Assembly: GCA_022508265.1 (NCBI GenBank)
Contig: JAFLVP010000007.1
Span: 21,061 to 68,187, forward strand
Origin: Clostridiales bacterium
GTDB taxonomy: Bacteria > Bacillota > Clostridia > Christensenellales > Borkfalkiaceae
DNA length: 47,127 nucleotides
Direction: 5' to 3'
Positions 26,973 through 33,976 of this stretch are shown piece by piece. Within the stretch, counting starts at the first letter, position 1. Each line of letters begins with the position of its first letter. Made by a program: the position numbers and the translations under genes. The notes under the pieces were generated by a model that searched no databases, had not been told where the DNA came from, and saw only the letters and a list, made by a program, of their open reading frames with translations.

Positions 26973-27947
26973 TTAAAAATTCCGAAGTCTTGCTTTAATT
27001 TCGTCCGCAGAGAGCCCTGCCAAAAGGCAGGAGAGCACTATTCTTACATTCTCGTTTTCGGTGCGACGCCTGAAAATATAGTACATAAAGGGCTGACTGC
27101 GCTTTAGTTCGTATCTGTGCTCTGATAAAAAGTCTATCTCGAGCGCGGCAACTCTCTTTTCCGTCTTCATAAACGGCAGTCCCGTTATACGGGTTTTGTA
27201 ACACTCTTTCCAATATTTTTCAAGATAGGTACCGTCGAGTGCCCGCTCTGCCTTTTCCTCGTTTTCGTCAAATAATACAAGCAACTTATCCAAAGGGATT
27301 TTTCCGCCCGAAATTACGTTATTTGCGGCATATTCGGGGGTGTTTGAGCGCATCACTATCAAAATATTGGTCATATCGACCTTTTGAGTGAGCAACTTTT
27401 TTAAAAGAGCGTTGCGCTTGCAAGCCTTTAAAAGACAGGCATATAACTGCTGTTCGAATATCTTTCCGACCTCCGCACCGGAGATGTTCATACCGTCATT
27501 TTCAAAGAGCTCAACTGTCGATTTTATCCCTTCGAGAAGTTCGGGATATACGCCTTCAACCTCCTCGCCGTCCACTGCTTTTTTAAGCGTATCGAGGCTC
27601 AAAAGCCCCTGCGGCGCAAGCATTTTATCGGCACCGCTGTTTAAATATTTCGCCTTTACAAGCGCCTTTGCGTTGTGAAAATCGCGCGGGGCAAAAAAGT
27701 ATGTCTTTATTGCGTTATCCGGGGCATATTCGCGGGTGAATTCGTCAATATCCGCCTCGTCGGCTTGCAAAACCTTCTCGTAATCGAACACCGAATTTAC
27801 GTCGGTATTCTTTATAAAACCGTTCTCCGAAAGCGCACGGAAAGCCGTCTCCGCACTCATTTCGCAAAACGTCAATATTTTGTCCTTTAAAAGACTGTTT
27901 TCTTTCACGGCAATTATGCCGTTAATATACACCAAGTCCTTTGCCAC
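26973..27947 (-). CDS. ntpC: V-type ATP synthase subunit C
   Basis: A 324-residue, almost all-helical, funnel-shaped subunit (the eukaryotic d-subunit type) that sits on the K ring and receives the D/F shaft. The 'AYINGIIAVKENSLL'-like start (here 'VYINGIIAVKENSLL'), 'FFAPRDFHNAKALVKAKYL' and the C-terminal 'PFMYYIFRRRTENENVRIVLSCLLAGLS' region are recognisable. Twelve bp follow the E subunit gene and nine precede the F gene. Confidence 0.92.
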   Translation of the reverse strand: MAKDLVYINGIIAVKENSLLKDKILTFCEMSAETAFRALSENGFIKNTDVNSVFDYEKVLQADEADIDEFTREYAPDNAIKTYFFAPRDFHNAKALVKAKYLNSGADKMLAPQGLLSLDTLKKAVDGEEVEGVYPELLEGIKSTVELFENDGMNISGAEVGKIFEQQLYACLLKACKRNALLKKLLTQKVDMTNILIVMRSNTPEYAANNVISGGKIPLDKLLVLFDENEEKAERALDGTYLEKYWKECYKTRITGLPFMKTEKRVAALEIDFLSEHRYELKRSQPFMYYIFRRRTENENVRIVLSCLLAGLSADEIKARLRNF

Positions 27948-27959
27948 AATCCACCGCCG

Positions 27960-28535
27960 TTATTTGTCGAGAAAAACTTCCGCCGCTATTTCAACCTCGT
28001 ATTGCTCTCTGTCGGCTAAAAGCAGAGCGCTATACGATACGTCCTTGTCCGCAACTTTTCCGCGTAGCACGAATCCGCCGTTTACGCCCTCTGCATTTAA
28101 AGCTATTTTCAACTTTTTCTCCGCGCATATATCAAGGCGGGAGACCTCTTGCGCGTACTTGAAATCGGGCGCAAACGCTATAATATCGCCGTCCTCTGCA
28201 AACTGTTGCAGAATTTTATCGGCAAAAGCAACTGCGTCCGCCTTTTTCAGCTCTTTCAACTCCGAGAGCGCGCGCTCGTAAATACTGTCGATGACTCTGC
28301 GTTTTTGGGCAAGCAAAACCTTGGCGGAGTCCAATCTTGCTTCCGCCTCTTTGCCGCTTTTAATTGCCGCGCATTTTTCCTCTGCTTCCGCCTTAACGCC
28401 CTTTTCGTCACGCTTTGCGCTGTCTTCCGCCTCGGCAATAATGCCCTCCGCCTGTTTTTCGGCGGCGGCAACTATTGCCTGCGCTCTGTCCTCTGCGTCG
28501 GAAAGTATCCTTTCGACTATTCCTTCTTTGCTCAT
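27960..28535 (-). CDS. ntpE: V-type ATP synthase subunit E (peripheral stalk)
   Basis: A 191-residue peripheral stalk subunit. The N-terminal half is an Ala/Glu/Lys-rich coiled coil ('RILSDAEDRAQAIVAAAEKQ'), the C-terminal half a globular domain ending 'EIAAEVFLDK' that binds the top of the A3B3 ring. It pairs with the 105-residue H-type subunit encoded first in the operon. Sixteen bp after ntpK. Confidence 0.9.
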   Translation of the reverse strand: MSKEGIVERILSDAEDRAQAIVAAAEKQAEGIIAEAEDSAKRDEKGVKAEAEEKCAAIKSGKEAEARLDSAKVLLAQKRRVIDSIYERALSELKELKKADAVAFADKILQQFAEDGDIIAFAPDFKYAQEVSRLDICAEKKLKIALNAEGVNGGFVLRGKVADKDVSYSALLLADREQYEVEIAAEVFLDK

Positions 28536-28551
28536 ATAATATCCTTAATAA

Positions 28552-28971
28552 TTACGCAATGAGCATTATGGAAATGATAAGTCCCAAAATCGCGTAGAAC
28601 TCTATCATTGCGGGGTAAATTATCAGCTTCATGCCGAGCTTTTCCTGCTTGCCTGCCGCATAGATACAGTTTACCGCCGACTTGCCCTGTAGAATACCCG
28701 TGATAAGACCGGAAATAGCCATAGGCAGAACCTGACCGAAGAGCTCCCAGCCCTGTGCAACGTTACCGGATGCTATGATGCCGATAATAAAGCCGTAGAT
28801 ACCCTGCGTTGCGGGAAGCAGCACCAAAACGAGCACCTGACCGAACTTTTTTGGGTTCTCTCCCAATACGCCCGCTGCCGCAGAGCCCGTCTTGTAAAGT
28901 CCTATCGCCGAGCCTATGCCGCACAAGAGCACGCACACTGCAACGCCGATAATTCCAACGAAAGTGTCCAT
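28552..28971 (-). CDS. ntpK: V-type ATP synthase subunit K (membrane rotor, Na+-type ligands)
   Basis: A 139-residue proteolipid with four helices as two hairpins, the fused form seen in bacterial V-ATPases. Only the second hairpin keeps the ion-binding carboxylate, Glu124 in 'AMIEFYAILG'; the first has 'LLPATQGIYG'. In the Enterococcus hirae Na+-ATPase the sodium ligands are Leu61, Thr64, Gln65, Gln110 and Glu139; here Leu52, Thr55, Gln56, Gln95 and Glu124 have the same internal spacings (3, 1, and 29 residues between the last two). Sodium rather than proton coupling is therefore likely (inference from ligands). Confidence 0.96.
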   Translation of the reverse strand: MDTFVGIIGVAVCVLLCGIGSAIGLYKTGSAAAGVLGENPKKFGQVLVLVLLPATQGIYGFIIGIIASGNVAQGWELFGQVLPMAISGLITGILQGKSAVNCIYAAGKQEKLGMKLIIYPAMIEFYAILGLIISIMLIA

Positions 28972-29007
28972 ATATAAACCTCCAAAATTTTTCCTTAAAT
29001 ATTTAAT

Positions 29008-30984
29008 TTATTTTTTAAGCCTTACGTAATCGTGTCTGGAGCCGAGCGGAGCGAAAAGCTCGCCGTCCCCCTCGAAGAACCTGCCGTAAAATTCAACGTA
29101 CTGCAATCTTGCGTCGTGAATATACGCACCGAGCAAGCCTATTGCAAAATTAAACGCGTGTCCTACAACCAAAATGAAAATGCCCAAAACTATAAGCATC
29201 GGGTTGCCGCTGAAAAGAAAACCGACGTTCCCGTTCATACCGGAAACCGCATAGTCCGAAATAATTTGTGCGATAACGGCGCCCGAGAGCATAAGTCCGT
29301 ACAGTCTTGCGTAGCTCAATATGTCCGAGGCGTAATTTATAATTCCGTACGCCGCGCCGAAACCCTTCGTGAACTTACCGAAGAATTTTTCTTTTCTGCC
29401 GGCGGTCAGCATTGCCATAACGAGCGCCGCCGCCGCTACAATTCCGCCTCCGTACGCAAGTTCTATAAAATCAAGTTCGTCAACAAGACCTGCAATTGCT
29501 ATACCCACGCCGAACGAGAAAATTGCCCAGATTACGCCTTCGCAAATTCCGTCGCCTATATAGCCCCGTCTGAAACACTGAACGGTTTTACAGATATATC
29601 CCGCAAACAGATGCACAACGCCGAGTTCAAGACTGATTATCAGTACGGAGGGAACCTGTATTCCCATAAACGCCCATCTGTCTTCACGTGCGTCGGGCAG
29701 TACCGCGGGGTATCCGAACTTTATTCCGAATATCGAATTGAACAAAAGACCCCATACTATGGCAAAGATACCGCCTACGGCAAACACTCCGGACAGCCTT
29801 GCAAGCCCTCCGCCTTTGGAGCGCAATTTAAACCAAAGCGCACCGCCGCCTAAAAGCATTATGAGCCCGTAACCCACGTCGCCCATAATAAAGCCGAGAA
29901 AGAGGCTGTAAAAAAACGCCATTACGGTGTTGGGGTCGAACTCCTTCGAGGAGGGCGGCGAGTACATATCCGTTATCGTCTCGAAGTTGCTTACAATCGC
30001 GTTGTTGAGGTATAGTGTGGGGGGAATTTCGTCTTCGGCGGGTTTTGAGAACTCGTAATACGCCGCGTTCGTGACCCCGTCAATTGCCTCGCCCACCACT
30101 TTTTCGCTCTCCGTGGGAACGTACGCCTCCAAAAGGAAGGTCTCCTGCGTTGCGCGAAGCTTTTCCGCAAGGGCGGCTTTTTCAAGCTCGAATTTAAGAT
30201 AATCGCAGTATATTCGGAGGGGTTTTATAAATTCCCGCATTTTAAACAGCTCGTCGGCGTTATCTCTCAAGCCGTCTGTTGCGGCTTCGATTTCGGCTAC
30301 CGCTGTCTTATATACGCTCTCGCCCGAGCCCTCTTTAAAGGGGCAGGCATTAAAAGACGCGCCCTGCAAAATTTTGTCGCCGTCCAAAGCTTTATGGAAG
30401 GCGGCAAACACGAGCGCTTCGTTTTCCTGAATATTGAGTTTGGAAATATAAAAGAGGGGCTCCTGCTCCTTTTCAAGCACTTCAAACGCTTGAACGGGAA
30501 TGGTGCCGAGTCTGTAAATAACGCGCGTACCGCTTTCCAAAATCGAAAAGGGCTGTTTTAAAACGCGATAAATGCTTGCAGTCTTTTCAAGGCGGCGGCT
30601 CTTTAAAAGAGAGGCTTCGAGCTCCTTCTTTTGCTCTTCGAGGGTGGTTATGCGGGCAATGTACCCCTCGATTTGCTCTCTCTTCTCGCCCGCTTGCAAA
30701 AATTCGGAATAGGACAGTGAGTACTCGCTCTCTATCTTCAAATCTTTAATCTTATTGTCGCTGATAAAGCCCGAAACTCCCCTTACGAGATAATCGAGCG
30801 CACCTTCCAAAACGCGGATGCGCTCTTCAAGCTCCGAAAGACTGCTACTGCAAACCTGCGTATTGTCCAAAACGGTATGAGTTTTTACCTCCGCCGCGCG
30901 CGTTCTTTGAAGAGCGTTTAAAATTTTATCCCGCTCGTATAAAAGCGCAACGAGGTTGAGCTTGCTCATTTCAGCAATTGCCAC
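29008..30984 (-). CDS. ntpI: V-type ATP synthase subunit I (membrane stator)
   Basis: A 658-residue a-type subunit. The N-terminal 340 residues are soluble and coiled-coil rich; the C-terminal part has about seven to eight helices beginning near 'NTVMAFFYSLFLGFIMGDVGYGL' and includes 'YASDILSYARLYGLMLSGAVIA', which carries the conserved Arg of the ion channel. The start is GTG at 30984, supported by GGAGGG 7 nt upstream; ATG 30969 is an alternative. The gene overlaps the preceding stalk gene by 14 bp. Confidence 0.95.
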   Translation of the reverse strand: MAIAEMSKLNLVALLYERDKILNALQRTRAAEVKTHTVLDNTQVCSSSLSELEERIRVLEGALDYLVRGVSGFISDNKIKDLKIESEYSLSYSEFLQAGEKREQIEGYIARITTLEEQKKELEASLLKSRRLEKTASIYRVLKQPFSILESGTRVIYRLGTIPVQAFEVLEKEQEPLFYISKLNIQENEALVFAAFHKALDGDKILQGASFNACPFKEGSGESVYKTAVAEIEAATDGLRDNADELFKMREFIKPLRIYCDYLKFELEKAALAEKLRATQETFLLEAYVPTESEKVVGEAIDGVTNAAYYEFSKPAEDEIPPTLYLNNAIVSNFETITDMYSPPSSKEFDPNTVMAFFYSLFLGFIMGDVGYGLIMLLGGGALWFKLRSKGGGLARLSGVFAVGGIFAIVWGLLFNSIFGIKFGYPAVLPDAREDRWAFMGIQVPSVLIISLELGVVHLFAGYICKTVQCFRRGYIGDGICEGVIWAIFSFGVGIAIAGLVDELDFIELAYGGGIVAAAALVMAMLTAGRKEKFFGKFTKGFGAAYGIINYASDILSYARLYGLMLSGAVIAQIISDYAVSGMNGNVGFLFSGNPMLIVLGIFILVVGHAFNFAIGLLGAYIHDARLQYVEFYGRFFEGDGELFAPLGSRHDYVRLKK

Positions 30985-31288
30985 GAGAAACCCTCCCGAC
31001 GATTTCGCTTACCTGAATATCAGTTCTTTTAATAACCGAATTTGCATACTCTTCGGCATTTTCAGCATTGTCCCGAATTGTCTTTTTGTAGTATTCTTCG
31101 GCTGAAAGTTGCGCCGTTTTCAACTGTTCTTCACGGTAAATCTTAAGTTTTTCTTCGCTGCGCTTTAAAATTTCAGCCGCCTTTTTTTCTGCGTCGGCCA
31201 AAATTTGCGCAGCTTTTTGCTCTGCGCTTGATTTTATTTCTTCTGCCTGCCTTTCGGCTTCGTTGACACGCTTAATTATATCTTCCAT
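30971..31288 (-). CDS. ntpF: V-type ATP synthase peripheral stalk subunit H/G
   Basis: A 105-residue, almost entirely coiled-coil protein rich in Glu, Ala and Lys ('NEAERQAEEIKSSAEQKAAQ'), matching the short stalk partner of subunit E (called NtpF in Enterococcus, H or G elsewhere). It is the first gene of the operon, with a promoter 32 bp upstream, and overlaps ntpI. The operon order H-I-K-E-C-F-A-B-D is the usual bacterial one. Confidence 0.88.
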   Translation of the reverse strand: MEDIIKRVNEAERQAEEIKSSAEQKAAQILADAEKKAAEILKRSEEKLKIYREEQLKTAQLSAEEYYKKTIRDNAENAEEYANSVIKRTDIQVSEIVGRVSRGNC

Positions 31289-31505: not shown

Positions 31506-31535
31506 ATATCCAAAATTAAAAAAAGAGGAATTAGT

Positions 31536-32390
31536 ATGAAAAAAGCATTTATTGCATTGGCAACACTCACTGCGGCCGCAACGGCACTTTGCTCGCTTAC
31601 GGCTTGTACGGGACCCGGACAGAAGGTTAAGGTAATAGAAATCGAGCTTACTACCGAAGATTATGCATACGGCATCAATAAAAGCAACACTGAATTATTG
31701 ACGAGCGTAAACAGCTATCTTGCAGAGTGGGAAGACGACGGTTCGCTTGATATACTTATCAACTCGTACTTTGACGGTACGGCAACGTTCAGCTATAAAA
31801 ACAAGACGGCTACAGCACAGGCAGGCGACTTTGTGGTTGCAACCAACGCTTATTTCCCTCCCTTCGAATCCTATAACGACAGCGGCGCCTTCTATGGCGT
31901 TGATATTGAAATTGCTTACAAAATAGCAACCGCTCTTGAAAAAACGCTGTTTATTAAGGATATGGAATTCGACTCCATTATTGCAGACGTTCAAAATGGA
32001 AACAGCGATATCGCTATGGCAGGTATCACCGTAAACGAAGCGCGCTTGGAGCAGGTCAACTTTGCAACTCCCTATTACTCCTCTGCACAGGTTATAACCG
32101 TTTTGGAGGGTGATACGACTTTTGCAGATTGCACGACGTATGAAGAAATTGAGGCAATTTTAAATAGCAAATCTTCAAGCTATACTATCGGAACGCAGTC
32201 CGGCACGACCGGCTATATGTACTCCCACGGCGACGAGGACTTTGGATACGACGGTTTCCCCGTTACCACCAAGGCGTACAGCACGGGCGCACTTGCGATG
32301 AAGGATTTATCAAACGGAAAAATCAACGCAGTAATTCTCGACAAGCAGCCCTCTCTGATGATTGCCGAGAGCATTAACAAAAATATTTAA
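31536..32390 (+). CDS. Amino-acid ABC transporter binding lipoprotein with circularly permuted SBP_bac_3 domain
   Basis: A 284-residue lipoprotein: signal peptide with lipobox LTAC, lipidated Cys24. From residue 98 it follows the family 3 binding-protein fold in order ('VVATNAYFPPFES', 'GVDIEIAYKIA', 'MEFDSIIADVQNGNSDIAMAGI', 'FATPYYSSAQVI', 'IGTQSGTTGYMYS', 'KINAVILDKQPS') and stops there. The last strand and helices that normally close lobe 1 (usual pattern 'LTEEEYAIAVKK...ELLDKINEALAELKADGTLDEI') instead lie at the N-terminus, residues 31-81: 'LTTEDYAYGINKSNTELL', 'EWEDDGSLDILINSYFDG'. A 16-residue linker joins them. Both natural termini lie in lobe 1, so the fold can be kept. Similar proteins seem to occur in other gut Clostridia. 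Likely ligand: a polar or charged amino acid. Confidence 0.9.
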   Translation: MKKAFIALATLTAAATALCSLTACTGPGQKVKVIEIELTTEDYAYGINKSNTELLTSVNSYLAEWEDDGSLDILINSYFDGTATFSYKNKTATAQAGDFVVATNAYFPPFESYNDSGAFYGVDIEIAYKIATALEKTLFIKDMEFDSIIADVQNGNSDIAMAGITVNEARLEQVNFATPYYSSAQVITVLEGDTTFADCTTYEEIEAILNSKSSSYTIGTQSGTTGYMYSHGDEDFGYDGFPVTTKAYSTGALAMKDLSNGKINAVILDKQPSLMIAESINKNI

Positions 32391-32397
32391 TTAATTT

Positions 32398-33087
32398 ATG
32401 CGTAATTTTGAAATATTCTGGACAAGGTTTACAAGCCCCGGACATTTTAAGAACTTTTTAACAGGCTTACAGAACACGGCAGAAATTGCCGTGTTTGGTT
32501 TTGTTATAGGTTTGGTCTTGGGCTGTATTCTTTCCACGATTCTTATACTACCCAAGAAAAACTTAATCGTTACGATTTTAAAACGCATTATCGACGTGTA
32601 CGTTGCTATCTTCCGCGGAACGCCTATGGTCGTGCAACTGCTACTTTTCCACTTTGCTTTATTCAGTTCGGTTTTAATTCCGCCCGTTGCAGAGGCATCT
32701 TTGATTTTCGGTTTAAACAGCGCAGCTTATATGACGGAGATTATAAGGGGCGGTATAAATTCGGTTGACAAGGGTCAGTTAGAGGCAGGACGCTCCGTGG
32801 GATTGAGCTTTACAACCACTATGTTCCGCATAGTTATTCCGCAGGCAATAAAAAACGTTATCCCCACCCTCGGCAACGAATTGATTTCGCTTTTAAAAGA
32901 GACGTCCGTTTTAAGCTTTATTGCGCTTTTGGACCTTACGAAGGCGTTCAGAAATATAGCCGAGTCGACCTACGAATTTTTTGTACCCTACATTGCGCTT
33001 GCCGTAGTTTACCTCGTTATGGTTATAATTTTAACCGTAATTATAAAGCTCATCGAAAGGAGGCTTAGGAAGAGTGAAAAGAAATAA
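32398..33087 (+). CDS. Amino-acid ABC transporter permease
   Basis: A 229-residue permease of the His/Glu/Gln/Arg family with about five helices. The EAA loop that docks the ATPase is '[33 protein letters not shown]' region (about residues 142-174), and '[12 protein letters not shown]' is the family signature in the preceding part. Its ATG is 7 bp after the binding-protein stop with no Shine-Dalgarno, so translation may depend on coupling. The 3' end overlaps the ATPase gene by 14 bp. A homodimer is expected because only one permease is encoded. Confidence 0.94.
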
Positions 33088-33976
33088 CGGAGCAAAATTT
33101 TTAAAGACCGAAGTTACGCCCGTTGAGCCTTACGACCCCGAAGCGCTTATCGAAGTTCAGCACCTTACCAAAAACTTCGGCACGCTGAAAGTGCTTGACA
33201 ATATTTCGGACAAGATACGTCAGGGCGAGAAAATTGCAATAATAGGACCCTCGGGCAGCGGCAAAAGCACCTTCTTGCGGTGTTTGAATATGCTTGAGGA
33301 CCCCACCGACGGTTACGTATTTTTCGAGGGCAACAACCTGTGCGATTTAAAAGTTGACATAAACGAACAGCGCAGAAGAATGGGCATGGTGTTCCAACAG
33401 TTCAATCTGTTCAACAATATGACCGTTTTGAAAAACATAACTCTTGCCCCCGTTCACGTGGGTTTGCAGGATTTGCACAAGGTGCAAAGAAAGAACTTTT
33501 GGATAAAGTTTAAAAACCTTTTCAAGAAAAAGGATAAAAAAATACCCCTGTATCCTATTCAGACTACCGCTAAAAAGATTAAAGAGGACGCAAAGGAAAA
33601 CGCCATGCGGCTTCTTTCAAGAATCGGGCTTGCGGACAAGGCGGGCGTATACCCCTCCACACTCTCGGGCGGACAGAAACAGCGTATTGCTATCGTGCGT
33701 TCGCTTGCTATGAACCCCAAAGTTATGCTCTTTGACGAGCCAACATCCGCACTCGACCCCGAGATGGTAGGCGAGGTTTTGGCTCTTATAAAAGAGCTTG
33801 CCACCGAGGGCATGACTATGGTAATAGTCACGCACGAAATGGGCTTTGCAAGGGAGGTTGCAACCCGAGTAATGTTTATGGACGGCGGTAAAATTTTAGA
33901 GCAGGGACCACCCTCCGAAATTTTCGGGAATCCCCAAAACGAAAGACTTAAAGACTTTTTATCAAAGGTATTATAA
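33074..33976 (+). CDS. Amino-acid ABC transporter ATP-binding protein with basic insertion
   Basis: A 300-residue ATPase with Walker [10 protein letters not shown] (58-66), Q-loop 'MVFQQFNLF', signature LSGGQKQR (197-204), Walker B '[12 protein letters not shown]' and switch 'VTHEMGFA'. Compared with the usual about 245-residue GlnQ-type proteins it has about 25 extra N-terminal residues and a Lys-rich insertion of about 35 residues (131-165) in the helical domain, between the Q-loop and the signature, where the protein contacts the permease. The start is GTG with AGGAGG upstream inside the permease gene. Last gene of the operon; a strong terminator follows. Confidence 0.94.

Follow-up and report, generated by a model that had tools for sequence, protein, structure and literature searches.

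Has a binding protein of a bacterial importer been circularly permuted in nature, and if so, how did its new order arise? The question is raised by a stretch of 47,127 nucleotides of Clostridiales bacterium DNA (hereafter the window; contig JAFLVP010000007.1, positions 21,061 to 68,187 of the forward strand), in which one open reading frame (ORF; ATG start, TAA stop, 284 codons, agagga upstream) encodes a lipoprotein of the family 3 solute-binding proteins (SBPs; SBP_bac_3, PF00497). An earlier note on this DNA had proposed that the C-terminal segment of such proteins (the "tail") stands at residues 31-81, after the lipidated Cys, that the canonical first part begins at residue 98, and that the protein ends exactly where the tail would normally start. 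The first placement was borne out by phmmer, by alignment to a close canonical relative and by a hidden Markov model (HMM) of the tail, the second by the alignments, and the third by alignment and tail HMM. The permutation observed in the window protein is real and confirmed.

PF00497 matched two stretches of the window protein (1e-27; residues 100-210 gave the best match), and the score of 96.9 bits passed the gathering cut-off of 26.4 bits. All canonical parts were present (the N-terminal part of lobe 1, or lobe1N; lobe 2; and the tail), but rotated: the order was tail-lobe1-lobe2 (termed B) instead of the canonical one (A). Therefore the window protein is a permuted relative, and not a canonical member, of SBP_bac_3. 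In a phmmer search of the PDB, residues 10-173 of AncQR (4zv1) aligned to query residues 97-275 and AncQR 177-231 to query 25-79, and the same two swapped blocks were obtained with T. maritima ArgBP (6svf). Likewise, in the canonical relative at locus L009 (a metagenome-assembled genome (MAG) of Candidatus Protoclostridium gallicola; 65% identity to the window protein in the best segment), residues 35-215 aligned to query residues 101-281, while the next residues, 217-276, aligned to query 31-89.

The tail HMM was built on 40 canonical C-termini, with L009 and its fellow canonical relative L010 excluded. All 16 B-type N-termini scored 29-73 bits, and the N-terminus of the window protein matched this profile of canonical C-termini at 53.1 bits (among the 16 rows the window is present twice, L001 = L082, as is another duplicate pair, L003 = L085). 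By comparison, the best canonical N-terminus scored 1.4 bits and 0/50 exceeded 10 bits (3/53 were too short), and the best of 1000 shuffles of the window N-terminus reached 8.8 bits, with 0/1000 above 10 bits. In relatives with a further order, lobe2-tail-lobe1 (termed C), the region preceding lobe 1 scored at least 33.5 bits in 52/52 cases. At the level of sequence, lobe1N-lobe2-tail has become tail-linker-lobe1N-lobe2. This rotation makes lobe 1 continuous and places the new termini at one of the two interlobe crossings.

An AlphaFold2 model of the window protein folded as one chain with a predicted local distance difference test (pLDDT) score of 92.3, and its tail consisted of a strand (residues 31-48) and two helices (52-68 and 70-79). 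Structure searches with this model returned SBP3 structures on top, with both lobes matching. We take both searches to be bound to sequence order, and the match rows that give ranges, which span model residues 49-53 or 93-98 to 281-284, carry little information on the tail. A Foldseek search with a model of a C-type protein gave TMq of at most 0.44 among the 50 matches listed and was not used. Arg170 was found in 51/51 and Asp269 in 50/51 of the B rows (duplicates included); we presume for them the ligand roles of the corresponding residues in LAO and GlnH. The SLTAC motif at Cys24 we take to be a lipobox. A neighbouring BPD_transp_1 permease and ABC (ATP-binding cassette) ATPase were found at the locus, as in polar amino acid ABC importers. 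The window protein is very probably a naturally permuted family 3 solute-binding lipoprotein that works as the receptor of this adjoining importer: it would retain the fold and the Venus-flytrap ligand cleft, hang from its hinge side by Cys24, bind a polar amino acid through the usual Arg170 and Asp269, and pass it to the permease. One point against this reading is that the predicted packing of the tail against lobe 1 derives from homology and the confidence of the model.

The tail might instead belong to the fold of another molecule nearby, the two forming a domain-swapped or complementing pair. The same sequence order would then be expected and an exchange between chains is compatible with the sequence; however, the model folds confidently as a single chain, and only one SBP_bac_3 protein was found in the genome, so that no second one was seen to lack or supply a tail. 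We regard such a pair as quite improbable. That assembly or gene calling swapped the segments is more remote still, close to negligible: the named B rows do derive from metagenome assemblies, but the B order recurs across many separate assemblies, the B rows of the focused tree (below) carry labels from no fewer than eight families within the order, and the C order occurs in a strain, Eisenbergiella porci, and in the complete genome AP025576.

Table 1. Features of the permuted binding-protein gene and its importer operon in the window
Feature	Position	Strand	Remark
Likely ribosome-binding site, agagga	31524..31529	+	read from the sequence; putative
SBP_bac_3 lipoprotein gene, whole, type B (tail-lobe1-lobe2)	31536..32390	+	ORF, profile and alignment matches
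Signal peptide and lipobox, residues 1-24 (..SLTAC)	31536..31607	+	Cys24 is the expected lipidation site
Tail (canonical C-terminal segment) in its new N-terminal place, residues 31-81	31626..31778	+	alignments, profile, model
Linker, residues 82-97, old C-terminus to old N-terminus	31779..31826	+	
Canonical N-terminal part of lobe 1, residues 98-190	31827..32105	+	with T165 and R170 (ligand motif)
Lobe 2, residues 193-284	32112..32387	+	with D269; stops at the would-be start of the canonical tail
ABC permease (BPD_transp_1, polar amino acid type)	32398..33087	+	begins 7 bases past the SBP stop
ABC ATPase (GlnQ-like)	33074..33976	+	overlaps the permease gene

Is the new order a trait of a whole family? 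The earlier note had suggested a family trait in gut Clostridia, and many Clostridia relatives were indeed found; the order was not uniform among them, and a check for its conservation among homologs came out negative. Four orders were found: A, B, C and D, the last cut inside lobe 2; tandem arrays occurred as well, and the four orders interleave among relatives. In a first set (L001-L111), the 121 ORFs with a lobe-1 match comprised 42 A, 16 B, 50 C and 13 incomplete ones. C rows bore titles of Lachnospiraceae, Oscillospiraceae and others, and 31/52 (two incomplete rows counted as C) were fused to the permease. A junction profile search that covered 396 genomes from the order and 398 from the phylum, plus 51 further stretches, gave L112-L221, in which the 111 ORFs include, among the matches listed, 34 B, one B-permease fusion, 34 C, four C-permease fusions, 21 A and three D (L119 being the window again and L128 being L089 again); these counts are not frequencies, because the loci were picked for junction matches or as best matches. 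Order D (lobe 2 second part, tail, lobe 1, lobe 2 first part; L157, L161 and L163, from three genomes of the phylum sample) has an N-terminal piece at HMM positions 33-34 to 75 and a C-terminal piece at 2-3 to 28-30, of 76 positions. Tandem arrays were of canonical phase (L215, L216) or of C phase (L159/L221, one gene fetched twice, with two units; L203, positions 1-2778 on the minus strand, with three units ahead of a permease domain, at least 926 residues in an open frame of 1013).

Further observations concern fusions. B-type binding proteins are joined to the permease at their new C-terminus at L007 (4935-6575) and L132 (523-2094, minus strand). At L012, L013, L014, L017 and L020, a free C-type protein adjoins a second, permease-fused C-type copy; 4/5 of these loci are in MAGs titled Ruminococcus sp. 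Permeases with ~235-290 extra N-terminal residues adjoin canonical binding proteins at L060 (5753-7132), L064 (5748-7157), L043 and L078, and in those of L060 and L064 Pfam at E 0.001 reported the permease domain only.

How often, then, did the order change? Trees were built on re-ordered SBP segments, with permease trees as a permutation-free check: i) a first SBP tree of 108/121 ORFs (all three segments present), with a permease tree of 104 of these 108; ii) a concatenated tree of 91 rows, which excluded L110, L109, L098, L092, L089, two duplicates, five twin C rows and rows where no permease or ATPase was found; iii) a large quick SBP tree of 211 rows, without 17 other or incomplete orders and the duplicates L082, L119, L085 and L128; and iv) focused trees, for which 12 chosen canonical rows were added to the 70 rows from the B-containing clade (L175 without permease). 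The fewest order changes required were 6 (108 SBP rows), 8 (104 permease rows), 5 (91 concatenated), 17 (211 SBP rows), 5 (82 focused SBP rows) and 7 (81 focused permease rows). A single clade of the C rows within the B-containing clade was rejected in the focused sets, at p 0.0033 (24 rows, SBP) and p 0.016 (23 rows, permease). In the first sets, C as a single clade was rejected with permeases (p 0.00036) and with the concatenation (p 0.011), and not with SBPs alone (p 0.103). The B proteins of L011 (first SBP, permease and 211-row trees) and L118 (211-row tree) stood among canonical relatives and are probably separate B origins. Within the B-containing clade, the ends of the C rows lie a median of 22 residues past the lobe-1 model (24 rows, range 1-37) vs 1 residue in other unfused C rows (32 rows, range 0-124); as judged from these ends, the cut points of the two groups are mostly different. 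With an HMM of the C linker, 18/50 B linkers (duplicates included) scored at least 3 bits vs 6% of shuffles, and the best shuffle (7.7) exceeded the best real B linker (7.0); homology of the B and C linkers is only suggestive.

Could a permuted protein also have returned to the canonical order? Canonical L009 and L010 nest inside the B clade, with L008 in the 108-row SBP tree (100/94*) and in a 28-row set with 26 B rows in the focused trees (100/95* and 100/98*). Their C-termini, FDGTADYTYTNPAR and FDGTATFTYTNP, resemble B linkers such as ..TFEYTNPASR. Such nesting, together with the linker-like stub, suggests a reversion from B to canonical order, in which the stub is probably the scar of the former linker. 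Alternatively, the permutation is real and there was no reversion: L009/L010 would be ancestral, their C-terminal extension could have become the linker, and B and C would have had several independent origins, a course that we consider possible and rather doubtful. It is rejected by approximately unbiased (AU) tests of L009/L010 outside B at p 0.023 (focused SBP) and p 0.019 (focused permease); both focused trees pair L009 with a B row (neighbours of L009/L010 being L132 and L129 with SBPs, L129 with permeases); and the FDGTA..YTNP stub was seen in no other canonical C-terminus listed, nor in the 14 longest extensions of 71 rows. Several points weigh against a reversion: a B clade without L009/L010 was not rejected in the first sets (p 0.133; 0.397 with permeases; 0.218 concatenated); with the 211 rows of the quick tree, a topology that kept L009/L010 outside had a better likelihood than the one that the quick search itself gave (p 0.665); their place within B varies, L008 in the 108-row and concatenated trees giving way to L132/L129 or L129; L009 and L010 as a pair were not rejected (p 0.549); the tested clades were named after the trees were seen; and the stub could be an ancestral extension later turned linker. 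Thus of the reversion tests, the two best-sampled favour it and four others do not decide.

The new orders may have originated when the gene was duplicated in tandem or fused and both ends were then trimmed, and repeated runs of this process would have given B, C and D, probably with at least one return to canonical order. Two canonical domains in tandem, such as SBD1-SBD2 in GlnPQ of Lactococcus lactis (6h30), already hold the B and C orders internally, so trimming at different places yields B, C or D, and a C order beside the permease leads to the observed C-permease fusions. Each GlnPQ domain is itself canonical, whereas the C-order permease fusions are cut differently. 6h30 matched both the B query and the B profile across its domain boundary, and among the PDB matches listed (60 of 91) the GlnPQ tandem was the only one whose best stretch covered the B profile from the tail across lobe 2. 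Tandem genes of canonical and C phases exist among the relatives; against this origin, no B-phase tandem was seen among the loci examined. Overall, we find it moderately probable that SBP_bac_3 proteins of gut Clostridia cycle through segment orders, with several breakpoints, gains that arose repeatedly and independently, two distinct B-to-C switches and a scarred canonical return, in otherwise matching importer operons and with tandems as likely intermediates.

Around the importer, genes resembling V/A-type ATPase subunits by their translations lie just upstream and divergent (26973-31288, minus strand). The ATPase of the operon has a lysine-rich insertion of ~36 residues between its FQQ and LSGGQ motifs: a pattern search put the two motifs 91 residues apart, against a median spacing of 55 across 84 ORFs from other loci. 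The insertion is not uniform within the B clade and was rejected as a marker for that clade. As to a riboswitch or T-box clue to the substrate, the sole Rfam matches at gathering scores were two tRNAs in the window, and the 16 related loci searched gave none.

How does the window protein compare with known systems? It resembles AncQR (4zv1), T. maritima ArgBP, GlnH and LAO in both lobes, ligand motif and operon context, and differs from them in its rotated order, with the tail first and the termini at the hinge. The permutation family reported with CPSARST is of the type II fold class. As described in the relevant part of PMC2395249, that family joins glycine-betaine-binding and molybdate-binding proteins and CysB, likewise bilobed ligand-binding proteins related by circular permutation; its cases are less than 24% identical, whereas relatives of the window protein are up to 65% identical and share its operon context. 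TpMglB-2 (Tp0684), from Treponema pallidum and proposed as type Ic or cluster Bc (PMC4990184), is another ABC binding protein that is tethered and has undergone circular permutation in nature; this cluster B sugar-binding lipoprotein has relatives among Gram-positive gut bacteria. It differs in being a sugar-binding type I/cluster B protein with the first three N-lobe strands at its C-terminus, and its swapped part has only 13% identity, vs a clear sequence-level match here (PMC4990184, same part). A type Ic or TpMglB-2 affiliation of the window protein was rejected: Pfam up to E 1 gave SBP_bac_3, Lig_chan-Glu_bd and a weak TcpS, and no sugar-binding family. The earlier note had suggested that the trait might be undescribed as a permutation; this stands for SBP_bac_3, for which no report was found in the open-access papers searched (subscription papers lying mostly outside them, and some result lists covering the top part) and on which PMC3779223, PMC9732360 and PMC7683729 had no bearing, and falls for binding proteins at large, natural permutation being published for other families. 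What makes this case notable is that the relatives are close, that the order changed repeatedly and that a reversion is probable.

Earlier natural permutations, as treated in parts of PMC4990184 and PMC2395249, span distant proteins, which makes both the succession of events and the intermediates difficult to trace. Here L010 and L009 are 54-65% identical to the window protein and differ from it in order inside the same operon; close relatives that display linkers, tandem arrays and perhaps a reversion make the model of duplication and trimming testable step by step. As natural permutants, the SBP_bac_3 relatives could serve research on hinges and biosensors, and profile annotation may read permuted members as partial or split domains. 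If true, repeated changes of order, possibly back to the canonical one, would be a rare natural record of protein re-wiring.
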